33,242 nucleotides of DNA, taken from a virus. The stretch lies in IMG/VR virus record IMGVR_UViG_3300021226_000106, positions 1 to 33,242 of that record; one strand, written 5' to 3'. Within the stretch, counting starts at the first letter, position 1. Each line of letters begins with the position of its first letter. This document shows positions 9,643 through 30,590 of this stretch, piece after piece. The notes beneath the pieces were generated by a model, which saw only the letters and a program-made list of their open reading frames with translations, was not told the origin of the DNA and did no database searches. A program made the translations under genes and the position numbers.

Positions 9643-9680
9643 AATAAAGCCTTTATTTTGAATAAAATAAAGGCTTTATT
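9643..9680 (-). terminator. intrinsic terminator after GIY-YIG gene
   Basis: A perfect 17-bp stem (9643-9659 with 9664-9680) with a 4-base loop is followed on the minus strand by a U-rich run. It overlaps the stop codon of the nuclease gene by two bases. The arms are AT-rich around a central GCC/GGC. Confidence 0.85.
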
Positions 9681-10377
9681 ATGCTAACTTCCACCCTTTA
9701 TGGGATTTTCTACTATAGTTTAATACTCTATTAAGTCCACTTAGATTTAATTTATGTAATTTGGCAAAAGTGGTACAGTTGTTTACTATATAACTAGTAC
9801 CATCAGGAGATATAATTTTAGGGTATAATATGTTTTTTCTTGCAGCAGAATTAGATAAAGTATATCTATTGCCTTTTAAATTTAATAAAATATTATATCT
9901 ATCAGGATATATTTCTGATAACCATTTATGTATAGCTCCTTGAGATATCATAGCAACTGTACCATAACTTACTTTAGTTATATCACTAACATCTCTTAGA
10001 GATACTTCAGGATAATCTACCAAGTAATCAAATACTTCTATTATTTGCATATTTGAATATACTGATAAAGGCGAATTCTCTCCTTTTAGTTCGCATCCAC
10101 CTGACGCTTCTCTAGAAGTATTAAATCCTATATCAGCAGATTTCCAAATATCTATAGCAGTATTTTCGGCTAAATCTAGTTCTATACTACTACATTCTAA
10201 AACTATTTCAAGAGTTGGATACCCAAATGACCTAAAAGCTGCATTCATTTTTATTGAATGACAATTATTACGCAGATCTCTAATATGTTCTTTAAAACGT
10301 TTTTCTATATTAATAGATTGTCCTATATATACGCCATTTGTATTAGGAAAGTTTAATTTATATATCCCACAAGTCAT
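9679..10377 (-). CDS. GIY-YIG homing-type endonuclease (232 aa)
   Basis: The N-terminal GIY-YIG nuclease domain (about residues 1-90) shows GIYKLNF, VYIGQS, the catalytic-type Arg in KRFKEH, and the Glu of LAENTAID. A middle helical region (EVSLRDVSDITKVSYGTVAMI) looks like a helix-turn-helix. The C-terminus (ISPDGTSYIV to SRKSHKGWKLA) matches the NUMOD/IENR-like DNA-binding end found on phage homing nucleases. I chose the ATG at 10377 because the domain begins there. The frame extends to a TTG at 10434, but that TTG is the -35 box of a promoter. No Shine-Dalgarno precedes the ATG. The gene stands alone between a terminator, its own promoter and a second terminator, so it is probably a free-standing mobile nuclease inserted between tail genes. 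Confidence 0.9.
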   Translation of the reverse strand: MTCGIYKLNFPNTNGVYIGQSINIEKRFKEHIRDLRNNCHSIKMNAAFRSFGYPTLEIVLECSSIELDLAENTAIDIWKSADIGFNTSREASGGCELKGENSPLSVYSNMQIIEVFDYLVDYPEVSLRDVSDITKVSYGTVAMISQGAIHKWLSEIYPDRYNILLNLKGNRYTLSNSAARKNILYPKIISPDGTSYIVNNCTTFAKLHKLNLSGLNRVLNYSRKSHKGWKLA

Positions 10378-10405
10378 AGCAGTATTTTTAGTTAATAATA
10401 TACAT

Positions 10406-10434
10406 ATTATATCAGGTAAATAAGGTAAAATCAA
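10406..10434 (-). promoter_or_regulatory. promoter of the GIY-YIG gene
   Basis: TTGATT (10429-10434) and TATAAT (10406-10411) on the minus strand are 17 bases apart, with an extended TGA before the -10. The predicted start of transcription is only about 20 bases before the ATG at 10377. Confidence 0.8.
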
Positions 10435-26105: not shown

Positions 26106-26543
26106 TTACATCATCTGATATCTAACCTGTAGGTTCATTTCACCTATGGCATAAGGGGCCAATAGCCCTTCATCAGTTGTTATTGAAACTACCAAAATTT
26201 CAGTAGTTTCGTAATTGTTGGTCGTGTCATAAACTAAAACACGATTACTATCAATAATATTTTCCACATCCTCTAGAAGTTTTTCTAGCTGATCTTGGGC
26301 GTCCTCACCTTTACAGTACATTTTAAGTGTTATACCTAGGTAAGCCCAGGCAAATCCTGCAGGAAGGTACTCTCGGGTTTCGGAACCAGAACAAGCATAC
26401 ACACAAGGGAAATCGTTAACCTCATCCCAAAATTTTAAGATTGGGTATGCGTTAGAAAATAGGTCTATATTATAAGGAGGATTTCCATTTATAAGTTTAA
26501 GCTTTTCTACGATAGCTTTTAAAATCGATGTTCTACGACTCAT
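26106..26543 (-). CDS. tail terminator / tail completion protein (145 aa)
   Basis: A 145-residue protein (RRTSILKAIVEKLKLINGNPPYN, FPCVYACSGSETREYLPAGFAW, AYLGITLKMYCKGEDAQDQLEKLLEDVENII) with the size, order of elements and C-terminal beta strands (GEMNLQVRYQMM) of gpU-like or tail terminator proteins. These form a ring that stops tube growth and joins it to the head. It overlaps the upstream gp10-like gene by ATGA. It is followed by 72 bases of non-coding sequence without an obvious signal before the tail tube gene. Confidence 0.82.
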   Translation of the reverse strand: MSRRTSILKAIVEKLKLINGNPPYNIDLFSNAYPILKFWDEVNDFPCVYACSGSETREYLPAGFAWAYLGITLKMYCKGEDAQDQLEKLLEDVENIIDSNRVLVYDTTNNYETTEILVVSITTDEGLLAPYAIGEMNLQVRYQMM

Positions 26544-28006
26544 ACTACAACTGCCCTCATTCTATTAGCTACTTTGGATTCTGCAATATCTCTAATTGAT
26601 TTTGCAATCAGCAGTTTAGGGTCTCTAGATTTTGGAAAACCTTGGCGATAGCCAGGTTCAAATGTTTGATAAGGATTCTTCATATAGCTATAAAAAGCTG
26701 TAATCATACCCTCTCGGCTTTGGCTCATGCGCTCTACTTTAGCTGACGCTGCGAAGCGTCCGGTTCTGTAATTAAGAATATCTCTGGAACTTCCTGAACC
26801 CATATTTGCAGATATTACATCTTGCAAATGTGTATTAAGTAGAGCCTGTAAACTGGCTAGTGAATAAGTTACCTGAGTTTGTTCCACTATTTTAGAACTA
26901 TCTTTTTTAACTGCCTTTAATTTACTTTTAGCAGCTTTTAACTTATTAATTTCTTCAGTATTACTTTTAGGTTTCTGTATTTTAGTAGTTTTCTTAGCTA
27001 CTAAGGCTTGTTTTACTGCGTACTCTACTTTAGATTTAGGCTTGCCTTGTAGTATATTTGTTAAATCTTTTGCAATTAAATCTATATAAGATGGAGACCC
27101 CGGCGTATTTATCAAGGTCTGAAGCATACTGGTAGGACTTTTTAATATATCCTTAGCGTCTTTATCAGTTAGATTAAATAACTTTCTAAGTTCTGTAACT
27201 GCTGCAGCACTTGCCCTGCCAGACTCTATATTTGTTGTACTAAACTGTATTTCAACTAAGTATTTATCACTTGATTTAATATAGCTAGCATATATTTCTT
27301 GATCTATTGCATTGGGAAGATTTGCGGAGGCTAAGTCATCTGCTTGCAATTTATTAATATAAGAATCTAGCACACCAATTAATAAATTTCTTTGTTTTTC
27401 TGCTAATTCATCAGCCTTATTTAACTGATCCCTGAATTGCTTAGCTAAATTTGTTGCAAGACTTACTACGTGCCCTTTATTAAAAAAGTATCCAAAAGAA
27501 CCTTGTCTTTTTCCCTCTTTTTCAATAGTATCAATTAGTTTTTGCTTTTCACTACCTCTAAGACCAGGCTCAGCATTCAGAGCTTGCTTTTGCAATCTTA
27601 CATAGTCATCTTCGGCTCTATGATATGCTTCTTGAACTTCATGATAGCTATCAAATAGTGATACTAATTTAGTAGATATAGTATCAAATCCTATGGACTC
27701 AAACTTTACAGCACTAGAGCCAGCAACGTTTAGAAAAACTCCTGATATACCGGAACTACCCGCCCCTGGTTTAGCTAGTTCTCTAAGAAAAATATCTGCC
27801 TCATAATCTTCCATAATTAAACCAGTTACGGTTTTATACATATCTTTAACTGTCTTTTTAGTAATATAAAAAGAAGTCTTTGAGGCAATCTGTTGACTTG
27901 ATCTCAGTGAATCTACTGTATTAGTTACAATATTTTTATCTAACTTTTTTAGCCAATCTTTATATATCTTGCTTTTAACTGCAGAACTAAATGCCTCTAT
28001 ACTCAT
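26540..28006 (-). CDS. neck / gp10-like head-tail joining protein, enlarged (488 aa)
   Basis: It sits in the slot of HK97 gp10-like neck proteins, between connector and tail terminator. The C-terminal ~90 residues (RDILNYRTGRFAASAKVERMS, FYSYMKNPYQTFEPGYRQGF, RSIRDIAESKVANRM-like) show the pattern of that family. At 488 residues it is much longer than usual (~120-150). The N-terminal ~350 residues are charged and helical, with a KPKSNTEEINKLKAAKSKLKAVKK linker-like stretch around residues 350-385, and resemble nothing I can name. The start at 28006 comes just after the connector stop and lacks a clear ribosome site, so coupled translation is likely. Function: probable neck/tail completion, with an unexplained large N-terminal domain. 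Confidence 0.68.
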   Translation of the reverse strand: MSIEAFSSAVKSKIYKDWLKKLDKNIVTNTVDSLRSSQQIASKTSFYITKKTVKDMYKTVTGLIMEDYEADIFLRELAKPGAGSSGISGVFLNVAGSSAVKFESIGFDTISTKLVSLFDSYHEVQEAYHRAEDDYVRLQKQALNAEPGLRGSEKQKLIDTIEKEGKRQGSFGYFFNKGHVVSLATNLAKQFRDQLNKADELAEKQRNLLIGVLDSYINKLQADDLASANLPNAIDQEIYASYIKSSDKYLVEIQFSTTNIESGRASAAAVTELRKLFNLTDKDAKDILKSPTSMLQTLINTPGSPSYIDLIAKDLTNILQGKPKSKVEYAVKQALVAKKTTKIQKPKSNTEEINKLKAAKSKLKAVKKDSSKIVEQTQVTYSLASLQALLNTHLQDVISANMGSGSSRDILNYRTGRFAASAKVERMSQSREGMITAFYSYMKNPYQTFEPGYRQGFPKSRDPKLLIAKSIRDIAESKVANRMRAVVV

Positions 28007-28008
28007 AA

Positions 28009-28587
28009 TTAATTATAACTCGCAGTATATAGATCTAGTATACGTTTAATATGAGCAGGAAAGTGAGTATTACTTAAATACTCAATTTGCATAGAATTAG
28101 GGTTAACATTCTTATGCGTGTGGACTGCAGAGTCATTCTTTAGGTAGTAGGCGATAATATCCAAAGTTACTAATTTTAAGTCAGCTGGTATACTGTCGTA
28201 ACCCGCAGTATATGTTACTCTGTAGCCATTGATAGCTTCTGGAAATGTTTTTGTTAAAATAGGTCTTAAACTATTTGTTGCCTTTGATAACACGAAATCT
28301 GTGTATTCGACTAAACTAGTATAATTATTACCGTAATCGGCTGAATATTCTAAACTTAGAATAGATTGTACAGGGTACTCATCTAATTGTATTGCCTCGG
28401 TGCCGCCTTCACTATAGTCAACTTTAGGGTCATTTACATAATCAATAAACGATCTGCGACAAATTGTTTTTACTAGATCAGACACCTTAGGTATCAGGTT
28501 ATCAATAGCAGAATCACTAGTAGTACTAGAGATGCCCATATAGGCCTTATATTCTGCTCTTGTAACTAATGGTAATGAAATTGCCAT
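28009..28587 (-). CDS. head-tail connector, HK97 gp6-like (192 aa)
   Basis: The protein MAISLPLVTRAEYKAYMGISS, then DSAIDNLIPKVSDLVKTICRRSF, RVTYTAGYDSIPADLKLVTLDIIAYYL and a C-terminal helix is a clear gp6/gp15-like connector, the ring that binds under the portal. I chose the ATG at 28587, which has AAAGGAAT upstream. The reading frame extends to 28653, but those 22 codons run through the terminator hairpin after the capsid gene and do not look like protein. It is followed after two bases by the neck gene. Confidence 0.88.
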   Translation of the reverse strand: MAISLPLVTRAEYKAYMGISSTTSDSAIDNLIPKVSDLVKTICRRSFIDYVNDPKVDYSEGGTEAIQLDEYPVQSILSLEYSADYGNNYTSLVEYTDFVLSKATNSLRPILTKTFPEAINGYRVTYTAGYDSIPADLKLVTLDIIAYYLKNDSAVHTHKNVNPNSMQIEYLSNTHFPAHIKRILDLYTASYN

Positions 28588-28630
28588 AATTATTCCTTTA
28601 TCTTTTACATACCCTGCTCGCAGAGTATGT

Positions 28631-28657
28631 AAAAGACGGGACCGAAGTCCCATCTTT
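28631..28657 (-). terminator. UUCG-loop terminator/attenuator after capsid gene
   Basis: An 11-bp stem (28632-28642 with 28647-28657) closed by C(UUCG)G on the minus-strand RNA is followed by four U. One position pairs as G-U on the minus strand but is a C-A mismatch on the plus strand, so the signal favours the gene direction. It starts 12 bases past the capsid stop. No promoter follows, so it should lower rather than abolish expression downstream. Confidence 0.85.
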
Positions 28658-28668
28658 ACTCTTAAAAA

Positions 28669-30570
28669 TTAAGAAGTGAAACGAAGAGCTGAAACACCAG
28701 CACCTAGGTTTGTTGCGATTTGTGTCATACCTGTACGTAGGCTGGCAACTAATACACGACGTTGTGTTTCCACAAGTTCTTGTGTATCCATACGCAGACC
28801 ACGTTGGTTACCAACGATGAAGTTAGGCGTATAAACAGCGATAGCACCAATGTTGCTAGTAGTAGCTGCAAGGTTAGTACCACTTGTTGAAGATGGTAGT
28901 TCTGCAGAAACTAGAACTGGGCTGTTACCGATTTGACCGATTTGACCAGTTAGCAATGTAGCTTGTACACCAACTTGGTTCATTGTCTGGAATGTGGTAT
29001 CTTCTAGCAAGTTGTAATATACGTCGGTATTAACAATGAAGGTAACTTCATTAGGATCAAGACCAAGAGCGCCAAGATCTTTACGTAGCGAACGCATTTT
29101 AGCAACAGTGATAGGAGTTGCAACTGCACCAGTAGTAGCAGAAACACCAGCATACACGCCAAGACCTTTTACAGGGTCAGAACCAGAACCAGCACCTAAC
29201 AAGAAGGCTTTGTCGATTGCTTTAGCAGTACGACGAACCATAGCGTCACGTACGATAGGCATTAGAGCGATCAAGCTATCTTCTTCCTCTTCATATGCCA
29301 TATATTCGTTGGTAGCAACTTTATAAGCATTAAGAGTGATTTCTTTCAACTGATGAGTAGCATTGCTACCAGCACTACTAGAAGAGCCAAACTGAGCGTT
29401 AGTTACCCATGTTGCATATCCAGCTTCTGGATTTACAGGAATAGTCATAACATTGGTCTGCATTGTAACATTACGTAGCAATGGAGCAACAATCAGCTTA
29501 CGACGAACCTCAGCTTCCATAGCCATAGAAACTTCAAGTTCCCATGTAGCTGAAGGTAGGTGAGCACCAGTTTTTTCCATCAATTGACGACCAAATTTGG
29601 TATCTTGCATTGACTTACCAGTGATAGTAGCCAATAGAACGGCTTTCTCTTTATCTGCATAAGAAGCTTCACCTTGCTTTTCGTTGCTGAAAGTCATTTT
29701 TGACTTTTGGATAGCTTCGATTTCAGCAGATTTTTCAGCTAGAGCAGCGGTTAGGCCTTCTAGAACTGATTTCGTGCTAGAAGCTTGTTCAGCGAAACGC
29801 TTTTCAACTTCAGCCAATAGTTTCTCTGCACCAGTTTCAGTAGGAGTAGCCATGGCTACAGCTGCCTTGATGCGTGCTTGCACTTCAGCTTCTTGAGCAT
29901 CAGCAAGGGATTTTGCAGCAGCTTGTTCAGCTAGTGCTTTAGCAGTAGCTTCAGCTACCATTTGTTTAATTTCGTCTTGGGTCATTTCGACTTCCTTCTG
30001 TGATTTGCTGTCTGCTTCCGTTGAGGTTTCTAGCCCTTTAGCTGATTCGCTTTTGGGTGCAAACTGCGATTTAAATTCTTTGTACTCATCAGCATCTGAA
30101 AATGCTTTAGACAAACTAAAAAGAGTATTTTGATTACAAGGTACTGATACAACTGATATTTCTACCAATTCCAATCCCTTAACAACAAATACTTCTGCTG
30201 CAGCATTATATTCAGCATCTAAAACTCTGAATCCAACACTAAATGCGGTTACTACTTCATCTTTTACTAAATTGAAAATCTCAGCTGCTGCTGAAATTCT
30301 CGCCTTAATCCATAAACCTTTTGAATCTATTCTATAATCTACCATGCGACCTATTGGGTCATCATGGTCATGTTGTGCTAATATAATAGGATTTTTTAGG
30401 TAGTTCTGAATTCCAGCTTCCCAAACACTTGTAGGAATAACATCGTCTGATCTATCTACATCGTTAGTACTTGCGTAACCTTCGATATAAAGAGATTCTA
30501 TGTTTTCACCTACCGTCGGTAGCTGTTTAGTAAAAGTACTATTTATAAATAATACTTTATTCTTATTCAT
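28669..30570 (-). CDS. prohead protease-major capsid protein fusion (633 aa)
   Basis: Residues 1-155 are an HK97-type (U35) prohead protease: LAQHDHDDPIGRM gives the catalytic His (67 or 69), VTAFSVGF the Ser (111) and LELVEISVVSVPCN the Glu (137). Residues about 165-300 are an Ala/Glu/Lys-rich coiled coil that plays the delta/scaffold role. Residues about 330-633 are an HK97-fold capsid protein (WELEVSMAMEAEVRRKLIV, MTIPVNPEAGYATWV, ending RVLVASLRTGMTQIATNLG). AAGGAG precedes the ATG at 30570. Proteases fused to capsid proteins are known but are not the common arrangement. An internal in-frame start at 29985 may release the capsid part separately. A terminator follows. Confidence 0.95.
   Translation of the reverse strand: MNKNKVLFINSTFTKQLPTVGENIESLYIEGYASTNDVDRSDDVIPTSVWEAGIQNYLKNPIILAQHDHDDPIGRMVDYRIDSKGLWIKARISAAAEIFNLVKDEVVTAFSVGFRVLDAEYNAAAEVFVVKGLELVEISVVSVPCNQNTLFSLSKAFSDADEYKEFKSQFAPKSESAKGLETSTEADSKSQKEVEMTQDEIKQMVAEATAKALAEQAAAKSLADAQEAEVQARIKAAVAMATPTETGAEKLLAEVEKRFAEQASSTKSVLEGLTAALAEKSAEIEAIQKSKMTFSNEKQGEASYADKEKAVLLATITGKSMQDTKFGRQLMEKTGAHLPSATWELEVSMAMEAEVRRKLIVAPLLRNVTMQTNVMTIPVNPEAGYATWVTNAQFGSSSSAGSNATHQLKEITLNAYKVATNEYMAYEEEEDSLIALMPIVRDAMVRRTAKAIDKAFLLGAGSGSDPVKGLGVYAGVSATTGAVATPITVAKMRSLRKDLGALGLDPNEVTFIVNTDVYYNLLEDTTFQTMNQVGVQATLLTGQIGQIGNSPVLVSAELPSSTSGTNLAATTSNIGAIAVYTPNFIVGNQRGLRMDTQELVETQRRVLVASLRTGMTQIATNLGAGVSALRFTS
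29985..29999 (-). promoter_or_regulatory. internal ribosome-binding site and ATG in the protease-capsid gene
   Basis: AGAAGG (29994-29999) lies eight bases before an in-frame ATG (29983-29985), residue 196 of the fusion. Starting there gives a 438-residue scaffold-plus-capsid protein beginning MTQDEIKQMVAEATAKAL, without the protease. The codons are in a variable linker region, so the site is not forced by a conserved protein motif. Confidence 0.6.
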
Positions 30571-30590
30571 CTTACTCCTTAATAAGTGTT

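Follow-up and report, generated by a model that had tools for sequence, protein, structure and literature searches.

A fused protease-scaffold-capsid gene with a conserved, probable internal start codon in uncultivated relatives of phage T5

A single gene in a group of uncultivated phages related to T5 carries the coding information for a prohead protease, a scaffold domain and a major capsid protein, and its sequence is best explained if it makes two 3′-coterminal proteins that co-assemble and are then matured by the protease (probability about 0.92). The gene was analyzed in a 33,242-nucleotide viral sequence, IMG/VR record IMGVR_UViG_3300021226_000106, referred to below as the window. A second initiation site within the gene is strongly supported: a Shine-Dalgarno (SD) sequence and an ATG have been conserved over deep divergence, codon usage breaks at this point, and the downstream part is homologous to the capsid gene that T5-like phages carry separately. 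The internal start appears real by every sequence test applied and is very probably used; a 438-amino acid scaffold-capsid protein (46.5 kDa) would then very probably be made beside the 68.2 kDa fusion. These computed masses agree with the sizes of about 47 and 68 kDa given in the earlier note, which had proposed an internal start for a scaffold-capsid protein free of the protease, and that proposal gains support from the comparisons described here.

Results

Organization of the fusion gene

The earlier note had described the protease and capsid protein as one frame of 633 codons, a description that holds, although the strand had been left unstated. The minus strand carries the gene, from a start at 30570 to a stop at 28669, as 633 amino acids in a single open frame. 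The protein is matched by the NCBIfam models proheadase_HK97 and major_cap_HK97 and by Pfam Peptidase_S78 (residues 26-152, E 1.1e-14) and Phage_capsid (residues 352-594, E 9.8e-13). The S78 scores exceed the curated cut-offs (PF04586, 55.4 bits vs 21; TIGR01543, 73.6 vs 59), and H67, S111 and E137 are invariant in 22 diverse relatives. From what is known of the S78 family, we take these three to be the His/Ser/Glu catalytic-type residues. The gene and its parts are as follows.

28669..30570, minus strand: protease-scaffold-capsid fusion gene (633 aa, 68.2 kDa; single open frame, Pfam, NCBIfam)
30115..30495, minus strand: S78 prohead protease domain (residues 26-152; H67, S111 and E137 invariant in relatives)
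29572..29985, minus strand: scaffold (delta) domain (residues 196-333), predicted helical, from AF2 helices and alignment with the T5 pb8 delta domain
28672..29571, minus strand: predicted mature capsid protein (residues 334-633, 300 aa, 31.8 kDa)

The AF2 model of the fusion protein, of low confidence (mean pLDDT 60), shows a protease barrel at residues 26-141, a disordered linker at 169-198 and long helices at 198-239 and 248-290, so the internal start falls between the linker and the scaffold. Foldseek searches with this model returned T5/DT57C capsids, the T4 gp21 protease and herpesvirus proteases. The capsid part matches the HK97-fold major capsid protein of the T5 type in both sequence (phmmer, E 1e-42 to 8ho3) and fold (Foldseek against T5/DT57C, E 2.7e-12 with the low-confidence model), and the window protein aligns with the T5-type capsid from the scaffold onward. 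The mature chain of T5 pb8 (5tjt, 299 aa), from which about 160 residues have been removed (PMC11313276), begins behind a Lys that aligns with Lys333 of the window protein, a residue nearly invariant among the relatives. The aligned site therefore predicts a mature protein of 300 amino acids, as compared with 299 in T5. In 8/8 long relative contigs the fused gene is the only S78 gene of the record, and the protease must therefore derive from the full-length product.

The portal gene precedes the fusion gene, which is followed by genes for head completion, a p143-like protein, the tail terminator and the major tail protein. The head module of T5 and other Demerecviridae, the nearest cultured phages, has the same neighbors. 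In the 488-amino acid protein encoded at 26540-28006 (minus strand) the only recognized part is a T5 p143 tail-completion domain close to the C-terminal end (389-478), and a homing endonuclease-like gene (GIY-YIG/HNH PHROGs) lies between tail genes at 9679-10434 (minus strand). The host search gave one partial match only, on a Verrucomicrobia MAG contig.

The internal Shine-Dalgarno sequence and start codon are conserved

At the junction between protease and scaffold the minus strand reads CACAGAAGGAAGTCGAAATG. The AGAAGG that the earlier note had placed eight bases before an in-frame ATG at 29985 is present, with a spacer of 8 nt and the ATG in the frame of the fusion gene. The initiation signals of the two predicted products are listed below.

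30575..30580, minus strand: SD sequence AAGGAG of the full-length start (4 nt before the ATG at 30570; duplex energy -8.7 kcal/mol)
29994..29999, minus strand: internal SD sequence AGAAGG, from sequence and conservation
29983..29985, minus strand: internal start codon ATG (Met196), present in 116/116 close sequences and with a counterpart in 35/35 distant fused relatives

A scan of viral contigs yielded 80 relatives, 81 sequences with the window, all with the gene as a single fused frame. A second scan, queried with conserved stretches outside the junction region, added 35 sequences of identical arrangement. The ATG is found at the aligned position in 81/81 members of the first set and 35/35 of the second (116/116, window included), and an AGGA core lies upstream of it, at a fixed place, in all 116. 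We then compared the internal start with 14 other in-frame ATG columns, each common to at least 20 sequences, in 49 representatives sharing less than 95% identity. An SD-like tetramer precedes the internal start in 49/49 representatives and the control ATGs in 4/546 cases. The internal SD sequence and ATG are thus more than a chance occurrence.

A trough of low RNA structure is present at the internal start; since it does not go beyond that of synonymous shuffles, it was not retained as evidence. The region around 30001-29947 (minus strand) gives a blastn match of 82% over 55 nt to a gene of Lactococcus ul36-type phages, annotated as unknown or as a DNA methyltransferase; this match is probably due to chance.

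Codon usage changes at the internal start

Conditioned on the amino acid, codon choice shifts sharply across the junction. Among Arg codons AGA falls from 49% to 1% while CGT rises from 18% to 71%; Ile ATA goes from 13% to 0% and Gly GGG from 17% to 0%. The pooled maximum-likelihood single change point lies 10 codons before the internal ATG. When the window was analyzed on its own the change point fell at codons 195-208, with a gain of 62.5, whereas none of 500 synonymous shuffles exceeded 40.5. When codon choice was scored with an index derived from the capsids of the relatives, the window gave 0.43 for the protease, 0.75 for the scaffold, 0.71 for the capsid, 0.59 for the major tail protein and 0.48 for the portal, and the scaffold exceeds the protease in 49/49 representatives. 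The strong bias begins at the start codon, with the scaffold domain, rather than at the conserved capsid fold. Several T5-like phages show the same contrast, in their case between a protease gene and a capsid gene that are separate. ATA, AGG, GGG and GGA also fall after the internal start in the pooled set of distant fused genes, and the break is weak in single genes of that set.

The simplest reading of this break is that the downstream part of the protein is made in larger amounts. The earlier note had supposed the nested product to be abundant and the full fusion rare; the codon bias speaks for this indirectly, but the strength of the SD sequences does not. On average the duplex energy is -7.4 kcal/mol for the outer SD and -6.1 kcal/mol for the inner one, and in the window the values are -8.7 and -5.8 kcal/mol, respectively. 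Since the outer SD is the stronger, SD strength does not make the fusion rare, and we discarded it as the cause of the product ratio. Either something besides SD strength sets the ratio, or the earlier supposition overstates how rare the fusion is. A conserved RNA hairpin located before the internal start is a candidate for setting it.

A conserved RNA element precedes the internal start

The peak of synonymous conservation of the entire gene is found in the stretch of 25 codons before the internal start, within the protease frame, at the following element.

30005..30069, minus strand: conserved RNA element (65 nt, covarying stem; 19 nt separate its end from the internal ATG)

Of 51 conserved codons with at least four synonyms in the protease part, those fixed as a single codon in all representatives all lie in the block of the element, and they include a Gly GGG. 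RNAalifold and pair counts define a stem in which GC..UUUGC.CC pairs with GG..GCAAA..GC, enclosing a nearly invariant apical hairpin, CAGCUAAAGGGCUAG. In 59 sequences 96% of cells pair, and four stem pairs show two-sided changes in 10 cells, as compared with 1.2 in shuffles. On the tree, six branches swap both partners of a stem pair for another pair; when the partner column was shifted by 1 to 6 positions, 0 or 1 such branches were left. The apical hairpin varies hardly at all and has no covariation support of its own. With the covariance model R1 the element was detected in the window and its close group, but not in the T5-like or distant fused loci tested, nor in loci L016, L120 and L127. 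Some fused genes thus do without the element, and internal initiation as such does not require it. An Rfam search gave no match overlapping 30005-30069 at E up to 5, the gathering score not being reached.

We infer that the element may act in cis as a signal for the capsid cistron. More tentatively, and at somewhat less than even odds, it would be a new element acting in cis to determine how much capsid is made relative to fusion protein, in a large uncultivated group of T5-related phages. Candidate modes of action are recruitment of a factor, processing of the mRNA to a stable capsid mRNA, or feedback by the capsid protein. A recoding signal was rejected as an explanation of the block; both other frames stop inside it, and no slippery site was seen in a suitable frame.

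The strong nucleotide-level conservation and the covarying hairpin just upstream of the start are also what would be expected if the surplus of capsid protein came mainly from a separate or processed mRNA that begins inside the protease gene, at a promoter or RNase site at or near 30005-30069, with the internal SD and ATG as its first start. The bias that SD strength leaves unexplained is in keeping with such an mRNA, as are terminator-like hairpins that follow the capsid gene.

28600..28655, minus strand: tandem hairpins just after the capsid stop (MFE -31.4, z -5.6)

The first of these is a UUCG terminator-like hairpin with a short U run, and this U run is the 5′ arm of the second hairpin, of 16-17 bp. 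Strong folds follow the capsid stop in 44/44 relatives with enough sequence, and the hairpins could end or protect the capsid mRNA. A promoter within the conserved block, however, finds no support in its sequence. Each of 8 long relative records has a single occurrence of the motif AGCTAAAGGGCTNGA, exact or with one mismatch, and the window has a single one even when three mismatches are allowed. The motif is hence not a shared promoter motif, and sigma-70-like sites are not in excess of chance. Furthermore, L016, L120, L127 and the tested distant fused relatives lack the element and yet have the SD and ATG. We consider a separate or processed mRNA a possible main source of the surplus, though not the favored one; it is compatible with two proteins being made from one gene. 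The start of the next gene is probably near 28586, after AAAGGAA, the listed start of its open reading frame (28653) falling within the tandem hairpins.

Nucleotides, and not just residues, are conserved at the internal start

If the full-length fusion alone were translated, the protease would have to be cut off each capsid subunit at maturation, and AAGGAA and Met would be conserved as a protein motif, Lys-Glu-x-x-Met. The frame is indeed open throughout, the full-length start has a good SD sequence, and the fusion itself is very conserved. Nevertheless, it is the nucleotides that are fixed at the internal start, and not just the residues. The Lys codon of the SD is AAG in 47/47 representatives that have Lys, while over the protease part AAG accounts for just 25% of Lys codons; wherever a representative has both Lys and Glu at that place, the SD reads AAG GAA; and AGGA is retained where the encoded residues have changed, from Lys to Glu or from Glu to Asp.

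Distant relatives argue in the same direction. A profile of the capsid protein reached fused genes at 34-43% identity, and among loci with a complete region all those outside the T5-like group are fused. With the junction taken as codons 180-262, an SD precedes an in-frame ATG in 35/35 distant fused relatives examined (3/35 have two candidates), whereas 7.3% of their 496 other in-frame ATGs pass the same test. The peptides at this place are others, and the SD takes the form AAGGA, GGAGA, GAGGA or AGGAG depending on the clade, which indicates that a function was kept rather than one inherited string. One translated unit would also be expected to show uniform codon usage, and in a T5-like shell each of about 775 subunits would carry a protease domain, the T5 prohead having 775 copies of pb8, from which protease pb11 removes the scaffold domain (PMC5292684). 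Translation of the full-length protein alone is accordingly very unlikely. That the internal SD and ATG are a disused relic of a recent fusion of two genes is hardly credible: T5-like phages do keep the genes separate and the tree needs a single change between fused and split, but the SD and ATG are kept in 151/151 fused genes examined, down to about 34% identity, and the codon contrast has been maintained though other synonymous sites turned over.

Discussion

A model for head assembly

In the two-product reading, ribosomes starting at 30570 would produce the protease-scaffold-capsid protein of 68 kDa, and those starting at the internal SD and ATG (29985) a scaffold-capsid protein of 46.5 kDa, which corresponds to the precursor of T5 pb8. 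Both products would co-assemble into the procapsid through their common scaffold and capsid domains, which would place a limited number of protease domains inside it. The protease would then cut behind Lys333, so that scaffold and protease come off and a shell protein of about 32 kDa remains. Such a design would be a simple genetic way not to load every capsid subunit with a protease. Gene callers will annotate just the long protein in such viruses, missing what is likely the main structural protein. The RNA element upstream of the internal start, the more novel part of the finding, is a specific and testable candidate for RNA-level control.

Origin of the fused and separate genes

The internal start bears on the origin of the separate protease and capsid genes of T5, as a fused gene with an internal start can split, or two genes can fuse with the second start kept. 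In a tree of protease plus capsid sequences a well-supported branch has the split T5-like genes on one side; the fused loci L154 and L162 adjoin these genes and the window group is farther off. One fusion or one fission suffices for this tree, the outgroups being too distant in the protease tree to root it. The fused L154, L156, L158 and L162 lie nearer to the split T5-like genes than they do to the window group, and they are useful for asking whether the separate genes of T5 arose by fission. Two apparent fusions were set aside: in the Moraxella phage 'coat protein' matches the two genes are separate in Mcat1, and the one-piece match in Yersinia phiR2-01 corresponds to two annotated genes.

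Comparison with known systems

T5 has the same order of parts, an S78 protease (pb11) and then a capsid protein with an N-terminal scaffold (pb8). In the seven T5-like phages compared, however, the protease and the capsid protein have two separate genes, which are adjacent, differ in frame and meet at the point equivalent to the internal start, whereas the window and its relatives have both fused into one frame that contains an internal start. The RNA hairpin conserved in the window group was not found in the T5-like loci. Protease-capsid fusions as such are already catalogued: PHROG 4523 ('major head and protease protein') and PHROG 617 are profiles from reference phages that span a protease and a major head protein. 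When we searched the open literature, we found no account of an internal start in a fusion of this kind.

The closest parallels in design are found in other viruses. In phage lambda, C is a protease-scaffold protein and a nested in-frame start gives the scaffold alone, Nu3, with the same 3′ end. The nested product of lambda is scaffold only, the capsid protein is encoded by a separate gene, and the protease belongs to family S49. In the window the in-frame internal start with its SD would likewise, as judged from its sequence, give 3′-coterminal products, but the nested one includes the capsid protein and the protease is of family S78. Herpesviruses, whose proteases are matched by the modeled protease domain of the window, make a rare protease-scaffold protein (UL26) and an abundant scaffold (UL26.5) with a common C-terminus; the nested product has its own mRNA and the capsid protein lies outside the fusion. 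A low-copy protease fusion would be common to both, while in the window the capsid protein is part of it. A low-copy protease fusion with a high-copy nested product would thus be the scaffold solution of lambda and the herpesviruses, here applied to the capsid protein.
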